Origin: Nitrospira sp.
GTDB lineage: Bacteria; Nitrospirota; Nitrospiria; Nitrospirales; Nitrospiraceae
Assembly (NCBI GenBank): GCA_029194665.1
Contig: JARFXO010000003.1
Location: 744,001 to 808,000 of the forward strand
Reading direction: 5' to 3'
Length of the DNA stretch: 64,000 nucleotides
Shown here: one piece after another, positions 49,239 through 54,930 of the stretch
Layout of the letters: each line of letters begins with the position of its first letter
Numbering within the stretch: position 1 is the first letter of the stretch
Position numbers and translations under genes: made by a program
The notes under the pieces: generated by a model
Databases searched by the model: none
Seen by the model: the letters and a program-made list of their open reading frames with translations, nothing else
What the model was told of the DNA's origin: nothing

Positions 49239-51530
49239 TTATGCGATGTGGGTGTTGCCATGCATCCGACTGAAGACGTCCCAGTCGAACTGCTTGGGTG
49301 TCACAGCATGAAGTGGAATCGGTCCGATTGATCCCCGTTCACGGTAGGCCAAGAGACATCCGACGATGTCCTCGGGTGACTCGATCAGTCGGTGCACCAC
49401 CTCATGGGCAAGATGTTGGGCCATCACCTTGTCCTCCGGTATGGGCCGCGCGCCTCTGAGCGTGTGACCAAGGATGGTGGCCTTGGTGGCGAGTGTGAGC
49501 GGATAGTGACCAGGTGAAGCATGACGCTCCGGCCATCGGGCAATCACACCGGCCACATAGTCGACGAGACCATGGACGCCGCCATCCTTGTGATGCCGGT
49601 GCGGCGTACGTTCGGCGACGACGAACAAGTGGCTCTTGTTCGGCACTCCCAATGTCCGCTTCAGCGTCCCGAGGATTACGTCATCGATATAGGCATTCGG
49701 GTCGGGATGTTCATTGACCAACAATCCCTCGGCTCTTGCCTGATACGCACAGGCCAGCGCCAGATGACCGGACCCGGCACCCATGACCTCCACGAAGAAC
49801 ACCGTGCCCATTGCGGCACTGGTGGCTTTGAGAGATTCGATCGATTGATCCGCCAACGCCACTGCGGACTGAAATCCGAGAGAAATCGTACCTTCGATAT
49901 TGTTGTCGATACTGCCCGGAATGCCGACCACCTGGGCTCCGAATCCTTCGTAAATGGCCCGAGCGCCCCGCATGCTACCGTCGCCGCCCAACACCACCAA
50001 GACGCCGTCATCCAGGTACGGCTCCAGGTGCCGCATGGCCACCTGCAACACCGTCTCTTGCTTGAATTCCTCAAAACGGCTGCTGCCGATGGGGCTGCTC
50101 GGATGGCTGCTCATGCCGCGAGTGTGCGCTTCGGTGACTCGTTCAATCCAATTGTTGGCCAGACCGAGATAGCCATGCCGGACGAAATAGACCTCCAATC
50201 CCAAGCGCTGACCGGTCACATGCAATTCCTTTAATGCAGCACCGGCTCCGGCGAAATCACCTCCGGACACGAGGGCCACGATCCGCTTGAGCGTTCGGGG
50301 CTTGAGCGTCACCCGATTTTTCCTCACATTCTCTACAGCCACCCACGTGTTGCGCACAACCCGCTCCCGCTCGGACAGCCCAACCGCCGTCGAGTAGCCG
50401 GATAAGCGGCCCTGTTCGAGCGTGAGCAGCACGACATTGTCTTGGCTTTCCTTGTAGTCGCTGAACTCGCTGAACGCTTCATGGAACGGGCGCGGATCCA
50501 AATAGATCATCAACGCCCGCAGGGTGGAACTATGGGTATAGAGACAGGCCACTTTGCCTTTTTGCGCATGGCCCAATCGGTGGAGACCATCGATTACGTC
50601 GACATAGAGGTCGAAGAAAGAATTACCACCCGGATAACAATACAGTGGATCTTTCATCAATCGCTTGGCCGTGGATGTCTCGACGCCGAACGCGCGCGCC
50701 GCTTCTTCGACCTCGAGGGACTTTTCCAATCCCGTGACCCAACCGAAATCCGACGATTCGAGAGCAGGCTCGGTGATCGGTTCGGACGGAGAGGTCCCTT
50801 GCAGCAAGGCTATAGACACCCGGTCGTATAGTTGTCTGGTATTCGGGCTACGGGTGATGCAATGAAGGAACGTACGAGGATCGAGGTAGTTGGTAAGATG
50901 CAAAAAATCGAGCTGCTGTCCCACAACGCCTATCATGCGGGCGAGCGCCGTTCCTACTGCGTCGGCTTTGGCCACGCCTCGTTCACGGTCCAATTGGTTC
51001 GGCAGGCGGCATCCGACGCGATGAGTCTTGCTGTCGACTTGCGACACCCCGTGGCGCATCGTGAAGAACAGCGTTCGGTCGCCAAGATCCCGTGGCAATA
51101 ACCAAAACCGGTCGTCGCCCAGTTCCAGGACGATGCGGCCTTCTGCCAGCGTCGGCGTGAGCTGCGTACGAGGCACAATGGCCACAGGGCGTCGATAAGT
51201 CGGTTTGACTGCTGCTCCGATCGTGGCCCGAAGTAGCGGTTGGAGCGAGCCTTCGGCAAGAAGCGAATTCCAGGCGGCAAAGAACACCAGCGGATCATCG
51301 AGCAAACCTTCGCGAGCCGACCGATATTCTAAAGCGGTTGCAAAGCCGGACTTGGAACGCTCGATGAACGAGCGGAGTTGTTCCATCTTGGCGTGGACAC
51401 GATCAACGTCCTCGCCGGAGGCTCCTAGCGGAGGAGGAACGATGAGGCCTCGCTCCGATGCTCGTTGAGCAAGGGCACGTCCATAGGTAAGGAGTCCTTC
51501 AACGGTGACAAAATCCAGTGGGTGACTCAT
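49239..51530 (-). CDS. Histidine-phosphatase-like domain fused to ATP-type phosphofructokinase
   Basis: The 763-residue protein joins two folds. Residues about 150-400 form a phosphoglycerate-mutase-like histidine phosphatase: FFTMRHGVS with the RHG motif and a second histidine in CLYTHSSTLRAL. Residues 405-763 form a phosphofructokinase: VSGGDFAGAGAAL, VVLGGDGSMRGA, GIPGSIDNN and VEVMGAGSGH. Glycines at the GGDGS and GIPG positions indicate ATP, not pyrophosphate, as donor. The MGR arginine that binds fructose 6-phosphate in E. coli PfkA is replaced by Ala, and the TIDND motif is SIDNN. The arrangement recalls eukaryotic PFK-2/FBPase-2 but in reversed order and with a different kinase. The start at 51530 is preferred over GTG at 51551. 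Confidence 0.9.
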   Translation of the reverse strand: MSHPLDFVTVEGLLTYGRALAQRASERGLIVPPPLGASGEDVDRVHAKMEQLRSFIERSKSGFATALEYRSAREGLLDDPLVFFAAWNSLLAEGSLQPLLRATIGAAVKPTYRRPVAIVPRTQLTPTLAEGRIVLELGDDRFWLLPRDLGDRTLFFTMRHGVSQVDSKTHRVGCRLPNQLDRERGVAKADAVGTALARMIGVVGQQLDFLHLTNYLDPRTFLHCITRSPNTRQLYDRVSIALLQGTSPSEPITEPALESSDFGWVTGLEKSLEVEEAARAFGVETSTAKRLMKDPLYCYPGGNSFFDLYVDVIDGLHRLGHAQKGKVACLYTHSSTLRALMIYLDPRPFHEAFSEFSDYKESQDNVVLLTLEQGRLSGYSTAVGLSERERVVRNTWVAVENVRKNRVTLKPRTLKRIVALVSGGDFAGAGAALKELHVTGQRLGLEVYFVRHGYLGLANNWIERVTEAHTRGMSSHPSSPIGSSRFEEFKQETVLQVAMRHLEPYLDDGVLVVLGGDGSMRGARAIYEGFGAQVVGIPGSIDNNIEGTISLGFQSAVALADQSIESLKATSAAMGTVFFVEVMGAGSGHLALACAYQARAEGLLVNEHPDPNAYIDDVILGTLKRTLGVPNKSHLFVVAERTPHRHHKDGGVHGLVDYVAGVIARWPERHASPGHYPLTLATKATILGHTLRGARPIPEDKVMAQHLAHEVVHRLIESPEDIVGCLLAYRERGSIGPIPLHAVTPKQFDWDVFSRMHGNTHIA

Positions 51531-51716
51531 AACGGATCGCTCGTCTAACACTCAGGATTTTTAGCAAGAACACAGAGGAGTGATTCCACACAACCTCGTT
51601 CCGATTGTCCATATAATTTTATGAATCCTAAACCGGCGCACAGAACGTAGCAAGAGGCGAAAGGCCTTGGTGTAGAGATCAAGGTAACTTGCTCTCTACA
51701 CAGCAACCGTGGCGTC

Positions 51717-52200: not shown

Positions 52201-52779
52201 CTATTCACGCTGCTGTTCTTGTAAGTTGGCCAAAGTCATGCCTCGCCCTCTTAACACATCAGCACCATTCGTATAGTCCATGATCTCAACCGCGAGCTCA
52301 GACGCGGACTTTCTGCTGGAATCAACTTCGAGGTCGTAAGTGAACCAGCGATGGACCAAATGAAATTGAGCGGCAGCCTCTCCGATCGTTCGATCCTGTC
52401 TGTTGCGTTCTCTCCGACTCAGTTCATCCAAGGAACAGTGCACTCCCACCAGAAGCACGTTGAATCCTTCTAGCCTCGCCAGGAGATCGGTCGCCTGTTC
52501 GGGTGAGGTTATGGCATTGTCGATCACCAGAAAATTGCCCATCTCCGCAAGGCGGCCCACACAGGCATTGAACGAACGAACTAGTTGCGGATAATTCAAA
52601 TCGAAAATCTCTTGGCCATGTGTCATTCTGAACAAGGCGCTGCCAGGCAACGTGTACAGAATGCTATCTATTGAAAAATTCAAATAGATCCTCGGCAGCA
52701 ACTCCTGGAGCTTGTGCGTGATCGTAGTCTTGCCGGAGCTAGATGTACCGTTCAAATAGATGACTTGCGGATATACCAT
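52201..52779 (-). CDS. Chloramphenicol phosphotransferase-like kinase
   Basis: A P-loop kinase of 192 residues: VIYLNGTSSSGKTTI is Walker A of the CPT family, FSIDSILYTLPG and FLVIDNAITSPE are typical. In Streptomyces a relative phosphorylates chloramphenicol at the 3' hydroxyl; other members phosphorylate unknown small molecules. The natural substrate is unknown and the gene should not be read as a resistance gene. AAAGGACGCAGC lies before the ATG. It sits next to a second P-loop kinase. Confidence 0.85.
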   Translation of the reverse strand: MVYPQVIYLNGTSSSGKTTITHKLQELLPRIYLNFSIDSILYTLPGSALFRMTHGQEIFDLNYPQLVRSFNACVGRLAEMGNFLVIDNAITSPEQATDLLARLEGFNVLLVGVHCSLDELSRRERNRQDRTIGEAAAQFHLVHRWFTYDLEVDSSRKSASELAVEIMDYTNGADVLRGRGMTLANLQEQQRE

Positions 52780-53692: not shown

Positions 53693-54130
53693 TTATCGCA
53701 ATGCAGGCGGCAGTTTCTCAATGAAGCGCTGAACGTGGTCCAAATACAGGGGGATCCGACGGACGGCGACAGGCAAGGCTTCGTACACTCGCTCAGGATC
53801 GATGTCGTCGTATTCGTGGACAATCCGATTGCGGAGCCCTGCAGCCATCGCCATTTCTTTGGCAAGATCGGCCGCCATCACCCCGAGCGCGCTCAGGCGC
53901 ACAAAAGATTCGTGATAATCCTTGGGCGGTACCTGGCCAGACTCAGTGATCAGATGAAAATTAATGTCGATCATACGGCCGATCGCCCGTTCCAGATACC
54001 GTTCAGCCAAGGCTTCGTTGATGGAATCCTCCAAATACCGCTCGCGCGATAATTGGGACAACCGAGTTATCGCAGCCAAGTCCTCAAGAATGAGACTCAT
54101 TTTTCTGGTGATGAGATGGCGGTCGATCAT
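53693..54130 (-). CDS. hepT: HepT-like RNase toxin (DUF86)
   Basis: HepT is the HEPN-fold RNase of MNT-HEPN toxin-antitoxin systems. The diagnostic R-x4-H-x-Y motif is present as RNRIVHEY near residue 105. The helical body has SRERYLEDSINEALAERYLERAIGRMID, a typical HEPN pattern. The start overlaps the MntA stop as ATGA. Length (145 residues) is normal. The tyrosine in this motif is a known target of MntA AMPylation in other systems. Confidence 0.92.
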   Translation of the reverse strand: MIDRHLITRKMSLILEDLAAITRLSQLSRERYLEDSINEALAERYLERAIGRMIDINFHLITESGQVPPKDYHESFVRLSALGVMAADLAKEMAMAAGLRNRIVHEYDDIDPERVYEALPVAVRRIPLYLDHVQRFIEKLPPALR

Positions 54131-54558
54131 GAGCGAAAAGGCTCCGCCACCAGTGCGGACAGTCGCCTAGCGACAGACTGTCGTTCAAGCTCCAAGTAGG
54201 GCAGAAAATCTTGGTAGGTCTTGAACGAGTACAGACGAAGACGTGCGAAGTCTTGGGATGTACCGAAAAGCATCCGACAGCCCTCCATGATTTTCTTCCG
54301 GAAGAGCGGATCTGCTCGATTCAGAATCGCCAAATCAACCTCGCGCCCAGGGAACCGTGACTGCAAGGCCTCCTGCATCTCCAGAATGGTCTTCAACGAC
54401 ACGGCCGGAGTCTCGAGTTGCACCGCCAGATCCACATCGCTGCGATCATGCGCCGTTCCTGTGACTGTTGAGCCAAACTGGAGGATGATACGAATGCCGA
54501 AACGCTGGGCAAGTTCTCTCAGCCCAAGTCCCGATTCTGTGATGGGTTCCTCGCTCAT
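54127..54558 (-). CDS. mntA: MntA-like nucleotidyltransferase antitoxin
   Basis: The 143-residue protein has the minimal nucleotidyltransferase motif GSTVTGTAHDRSDVDLAV with a later third acidic residue in REVDLAIL. MntA modifies HepT by adding AMP groups and so blocks the RNase. The start at 54558 (MSEEPITESG) was chosen over the long frame from 54858, which adds 100 residues without similarity. It overlaps hepT as ATGA. The 370-bp gap upstream (54559-54930) shows no gene, but a TATAGT -10-like box at 54887-54892 precedes the next gene on the plus strand. Confidence 0.92.
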   Translation of the reverse strand: MSEEPITESGLGLRELAQRFGIRIILQFGSTVTGTAHDRSDVDLAVQLETPAVSLKTILEMQEALQSRFPGREVDLAILNRADPLFRKKIMEGCRMLFGTSQDFARLRLYSFKTYQDFLPYLELERQSVARRLSALVAEPFRS

Positions 54559-54930
54559 CCGTCTGCTCTGAGGATTATCATCCAAGCCGTAGCCTAGCCG
54601 AGACCGCGATGATTGTCTATGCGGCAACAGCTGCTCACCACGGCATGCCCACGAAACATCCTGAAATTGATCTGAAAGTAATTCCATCTTCACCTCATGT
54701 ACTCCTGTGAACGGTGCCACGAAACCACGGCGAGTCAGCCATTTCCCCGAAGATTTGATGTTCCGGAATGTCCGATCGAAAAACATTTCCAAACGCGCTA
54801 CAGTCTTCACTATCCGTAGACCTGCACGGATGGCTCTACTGCTCCCCGGTCTGCACACAATCGACTGAACTTAAGGGAGGTTATGTTATAGTGGGAGCAT
54901 CGAGAAATCTCTAGGAGAAGGAGAGTCGGT

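Follow-up and report, generated by a model that had tools for sequence, protein, structure and literature searches.

A histidine-phosphatase-fold domain and a PfkA-type kinase joined in one conserved protein of the class Nitrospiria

In a 64,000-nucleotide stretch of Nitrospira DNA, the whole of which we call the window, a histidine-phosphatase (HP)-fold domain and a PfkA-type phosphofructokinase (PFK) domain form one conserved protein. This protein is established and under selection in the class Nitrospiria, and its place is in central carbon metabolism. A sequence-only reading of the window had proposed an RHG phosphatase-like domain fused to a PFK, and this is indeed what we found: one uninterrupted open reading frame that matches PF00365, with PF00300 matching 73 of 74 relatives (E at most 0.1, lowest 8e-8). 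The two domains follow a helical N-terminal module (Table 1), and in Pfam only PF00365 and PF00300 matched the protein, with no P-loop 6-phosphofructo-2-kinase domain. The ATG is the more likely start, because the relatives have the region MSHPLDFVT in common and diverge ahead of it.

Table 1. Features of the fusion gene and its product (window positions; residue names in brackets are those of E. coli PfkA).
Feature	Position	Strand	Observation
Whole open reading frame	49239..51551	-	770 aa from GTG at 51551; single frame without stop
Probable start ATG	51530	-	residue 8 of the long frame, MSHPLDF; gives 763 aa
Helical N-terminal module, residues ~10-120	51192..51524	-	predicted model; no known family
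HP-fold domain, residues ~158-390	50382..51080	-	PF00300 in relatives; AlphaFold2 model; PDB matches at Z 16
RHG motif R166-H167-G168	51048..51056	-	R166 and H167 in 123/123; G168 in 74/74
R239, second catalytic Arg position	50835..50837	-	R in 78/123
S266, opposite the acid Glu usual in HP enzymes	50754..50756	-	S in 73/74
H340, second catalytic His	50532..50534	-	123/123
PfkA-type PFK domain, residues ~421-740	49332..50291	-	PF00365, 185.5 bits; 1pfk, Z 21.6
GGDGS 522-526, ATP-type donor motif	49974..49988	-	D524 and G525 invariant
SIDNN 547-551	49899..49913	-	catalytic base D549 (D127) kept; N551 replaces D129
T583, replacing R162	49803..49805	-	S/T/N in all fusions
MGA 590-592, replacing MGR (R171)	49776..49784	-	A592 in 123/123
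K690, replacing R243 (6-phosphate Arg)	49482..49484	-	K in 123/123

The same fusion, which the earlier reading had suggested looking for in other Nitrospirota, was present in 56 of 245 genomes of the phylum, in seven families of the class Nitrospiria and at 62-96% identity to the window protein, which argues against both chance and an assembly join. Wider sampling extended this to ten families of the class and 123 distinct, intact fused sequences, ruling out the frameshift or assembly join between two genes that had been named among the ways in which the proposal could fail. Outside the class, the 245 genomes gave only ordinary PFKs and no fusion. A profile of the HP module matched only long fused frames (41 of 198 genomes), and no free-standing copy of the module was found in the phylum at E 0.01. 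Nitrospira moscoviensis and Ca. N. defluvii are among the named carriers; when ~85,000 species genomes were scanned, the best 80 loci, with 36 weaker ones left aside, nearly all had record titles of the Nitrospira group, and one was labelled Nitrospinota. Both halves are under purifying selection, with dN/dS of 0.03-0.09 (~0.06) in each between the window and its near relatives. Mean pairwise identity is 77% in the PFK half versus 69% in the HP half, and the N-terminal module is the least conserved part (51%). The N-terminal 120 residues, searched as part of a model of residues 1-420, matched no known fold.

In two families of Nitrospirales (f1 and f2), the PF00365 matches comprised the fusion, frames of PPi-type length and a few short broken frames, and canonical PFKs of 320-385 aa occurred in other families only. 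The fusion thus appears, as judged from these matches, to be the sole ATP-type PFK left in the sampled Nitrospirales genomes. The genome from which the window comes also encodes two PPi-type phosphofructokinases (GGDDT, PKTIDND), ~25-27% identical to the PFK half of the fusion, one of them ~5 kb from the pgi locus. Two Nitrospira genomes that lack the fusion gene carry a frameshifted relic of its C-terminal 53 residues (L189:1621-1775 in G062 and L190:1565-1722 in G093; 62-81% identical), suggesting recent gene loss.

The PFK half is a confident match to PF00365 (residues 423-720, against a cut-off of 30.9 bits), and it scored 170 bits against the NCBIfam PfkA equivalog model TIGR02482, whose cut-off is 371. 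The full-length AlphaFold model is poor in this half (pLDDT mostly 30-60 over residues 550-700), and the residue readings given here are taken from an alignment with E. coli PfkA, whose numbering we follow, and with canonical PFKs of Nitrospirota and other phyla. Asp103, Gly104, Gly124, Asp127, Arg72, Glu222, His249 and Arg252 are kept and are invariant over the 123 fusions; with the catalytic residues frozen in this way, the kinase half is probably active. In a maximum-likelihood tree it fell among ATP-type and not PPi-type enzymes, a placement that is approximate given a stem of 3.75 changes per site.

The sugar site is another matter. The sequence-only reading had pointed to the changes MGR to MGA and TIDND to SIDNN, and both turned out to be family-wide: position 171 is Ala in all 123 fusions and position 129 is Asn in 122 and Asp in one. 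In addition to these, position 162 is Ser in 111 fusions, Thr in 11 and Asn in one, and position 243 is Lys throughout. The sugar site of the kinase has changed. Every canonical PFK aligned keeps Asp129, Arg162 and Arg243, and all but one keep Arg171. Among the four residues that hold the phosphate of fructose 6-phosphate (F6P), His249 and Arg252 are kept, and Arg162 and Arg243 are changed in all fusions. Apart from those of Arg162 and Asp127, we take the roles of the E. coli residues from general knowledge of PfkA. Positions 21, 25, 54, 185, 211, 213 and 215, which we take to form the bacterial PFK effector site, carry residues other than those of E. coli PfkA in every fusion sampled. Arg162 is the 6-phosphate and allosteric switch Arg (PMC12203962). 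On the aligned residues, little is left of the usual ADP/PEP effector site, and the sugar pocket and the allostery would both differ from those of textbook PfkA. Because of these changes the name 6-phosphofructokinase, which automatic annotation may assign, should not be accepted without question.

The other half is an HP-fold domain. In the window protein itself PF00300 (His_Phos_1) matched residues 252-358 with 19.4 bits, below the cut-off of 21.7. An AlphaFold2 model of residues 1-420, built from 74 sequences, reached a pLDDT of 81.7 and a pTM of 0.84, and VIA-align superposed its residues 159-389 on PhoE/YhfR (1ebb) with Z 16.4 and 2.6 A over 193 residues. The phosphoserine phosphatase PspA and phosphoglycerate mutases were also matched, all within ~2 Z units, and PFKFB was not among the 50 VIA-align matches listed. 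Foldseek returned TIGAR, PGAM1 and PFKFB2 at E ~1e-7, with TIGAR and PFKFB2 near the top and tied with phosphoglycerate mutases. Since generic phosphatases and phosphoglycerate mutases tie in these searches, the HP fold does not tell the substrate. Profile hits in the PDB were all weak, and the sole phosphatase among them was PFKFB2, through the motif Y.YPGG.S (E 0.85). Of the genome's own HP proteins, GpmA was aligned only weakly with the HP profile by hhalign, and the other one not at all. The same genome encodes, beside glucose-6-phosphate isomerase, an HP protein (L175:1480-2079, C2 near 560206) with Ser at the second catalytic His position (TSGHF, the usual form being SHGHF).

HP enzymes share a catalytic cluster of two His and two Arg (PMC5501728). 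Of the features of branch 1 of the HP superfamily, the fusions have the fold, the Arg and His of the RHG motif and the second His, and they lack a conserved second catalytic Arg. Position 239 is otherwise Glu, Thr, Lys, Ser, His or Gln among the 123 fusions, with a loop register that may be off by one, and no other Arg in the surrounding loop is invariant. The acid/base Glu of HP enzymes lies in the motif L.E..[FY]G. In both of two MAFFT alignments that included HP proteins of the same genome, LE-S-QDFG of the fusion stood opposite LV-E-WDYG and LN-E-RMYG, a register in which the usual acid Glu is replaced by Ser266, with Glu265 beside it. The invariant RHG motif and His340, taken with the unconserved second Arg and the apparently replaced Glu, fit binding better than turnover. 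We infer that the HP domain still binds phosphate with turnover that may be slow or absent, its ligand probably being a phosphorylated compound.

The surroundings of the gene point to central glycolysis. A pyruvate kinase gene lies near the fusion gene at 53 of 90 loci; counted outside the window's own clade (at least 87% identity) this is 53 of 66, several of them on truncated contigs, and within that clade it is 0 of 24. In N. defluvii and N. moscoviensis the pyruvate kinase gene is divergently oriented, in other cases it lies downstream, and in the window genome it is encoded on a different contig. The window itself holds, at 53693-54858 (-), a HepT-like RNase adjoining a frame that carries the motif of a minimal nucleotidyltransferase (GSTVTG..HDRSDVDLAV), which is likely a HepT/MntA toxin-antitoxin pair, and, at 52201-52779 (-), a chloramphenicol-phosphotransferase-like kinase (PF07931, 135 bits).

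Our favoured reading, held tentatively and at somewhat less than even confidence, is that the protein is a PfkA-family kinase that phosphorylates a sugar phosphate and whose HP domain acts mainly as a sensor of a phosphorylated ligand. Here we infer the kinase activity, its substrate, the sensing by the HP domain and the coupling between the domains. The kinase, specific to Nitrospiria as sampled, would work at or near the F6P step using ATP, with a rebuilt sugar pocket and without most of its built-in ADP/PEP effector site. The regulatory role would have passed to the fused HP domain: its RHG/His pocket would bind a phosphorylated metabolite, with phosphatase turnover weak at most, and binding would be coupled to the kinase half. 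The invariance of the catalytic base Asp127 and of Asp103, Gly104, Arg72, Glu222, His249 and Arg252 is unlike that of a dead enzyme. Against this reading, loss of Asp129, Arg162 and Arg243 could have abolished the kinase. Loss of the proton donor is not always fatal to HP enzymes, either: MINPP has Ala at that position, and the phosphatase domain of Vip1 is activated by a Glu-to-Ala change (PMC11836120). At position 239 Arg remains the most frequent residue and is the one in the window protein, and Glu265 stands beside the Glu position. In addition, some Nitrospira have lost the fusion gene without replacement, and the pyruvate kinase synteny is missing in the window's own clade.

If the HP half does turn over, the protein might be a bifunctional switch in which the PfkA half adds a phosphate, the HP half removes the same one and effectors set the balance, with a kinase unrelated to PFK-2. 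The HP fold, the invariance of both His and of the RHG Arg, and the appearance of PFKFB2 in the PDB profile hits and of TIGAR and PFKFB2 near the Foldseek top, albeit in a tie, all speak for such a switch, which we consider possible though unlikely. The unconserved second Arg and the apparent change of Glu to Ser count against it, PGG.S occurs also in ordinary HP enzymes of the same genome (PGGES), and a separate class I fructose-bisphosphatase (FBPase) is encoded, scoring above the Pfam cut-off in 36 of 41 family genomes, the window's own included. GlpX was found in none of the 41, again including the window's own genome, and FBPase_3 was not found in the latter. With class I FBPase present no FBPase is missing, and the idea that the HP half fills such a need was rejected. 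The earlier suggestion of a PFK-2/FBPase-2-like solution accordingly stands in so far as an HP domain and a kinase share one chain; the part of it that cast the HP half as an FBPase opposing PFK is so far not borne out by the second Arg, by the acid Glu or by the fold searches, which do not single out FBPase-2. A switch of this kind is a possible, live option and not the default. The stronger proposal, that a single-chain bacterial PfkA-fold kinase and HP phosphatase makes and breaks a sugar bisphosphate and so reinvented the role of eukaryotic PFK-2/FBPase-2 independently, seems to us improbable; if it were true, that bisphosphate might have a regulatory function in Nitrospira.

The changes in the sugar site could instead mean that the kinase acts on a substrate other than F6P, loss of Arg162 and Arg171 and the change of Arg243 to Lys having made room for, for example, sedoheptulose 7-phosphate (S7P). 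Two of the four 6-phosphate residues are changed in every fusion, and PFKs elsewhere use S7P (PMC12203962), but the pyruvate kinase neighbourhood suggests glycolysis, and retention of His249, Arg252 and Glu222 implies that some phosphate site remains. Transaldolase-family genes, moreover, are present in 36 of 40 genomes of the class, leaving no metabolic gap that would require an SBP route, so that an S7P kinase as gap-filler is unsupported; overall we regard a change of substrate as distinctly unlikely. One transaldolase-family match (G000:C3:291137-292186) lies within an open frame of 955 aa that may encode a transaldolase fusion, with a second copy in a 602-aa frame ~12 kb from it. Least probable of all, in our judgement, is that neither half is enzymatic and that the protein, through binding of sugar phosphate and nucleotide, serves as a sensor or scaffold in the control of other enzymes of glycolysis. 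Both active sites are altered, and the C-terminal halves of eukaryotic PFKs provide a precedent for a PFK fold turned sensor, but the catalytic base and the ATP motif are perfectly conserved over ten families.

Nitrospira are major nitrite oxidisers and complete ammonia oxidisers, and the control of their sugar metabolism is poorly understood. With the fusion apparently the sole ATP-type PFK in the sampled Nitrospirales, its activity would decide how glycolysis runs there. The fusion would be a new domain architecture for the PFK superfamily: we found no mention of an HP-PFK fusion in the literature searched, and a 2025 review of the superfamily does not mention a phosphatase fusion (PMC12203962).

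Among known systems, the fusion resembles bacterial PfkA (1pfk) in fold, in the GGDGS motif and in Asp127, Arg72, Glu222, His249 and Arg252, at ~25-33% identity, and differs from it in the added N-terminal and HP modules, in D129N, R162S/T, R171A and R243K and in the loss of most of the effector site. Like PFK-2/FBPase-2 (PFKFB), it combines a kinase named phosphofructokinase with an HP-fold domain in one chain, and its HP motif Y.YPGG.S resembles PFKFB2. However, PFKFB has a P-loop kinase at the N terminus and its phosphatase at the C terminus, whereas in the fusion the HP domain is N-terminal and a PfkA-fold kinase C-terminal, and the second Arg of the HP site is unconserved. The HP fold itself is that of PhoE/YhfR, PspA and cofactor-dependent phosphoglycerate mutase (Z 15-16), and the motif H.S.LRAL...LD is like that of the genome's own GpmA; unlike the small HP phosphatases and phosphoglycerate mutase, the HP domain of the fusion has insertions, conserves neither the second Arg nor, as aligned, the acid Glu, and was never found free-standing. 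PPIP5K/Vip1 likewise unites a kinase and an HP domain with an unusual acid residue in the HP site, but with a different kinase fold, a branch-2 HP domain and a function in eukaryotic inositol pyrophosphate signalling.
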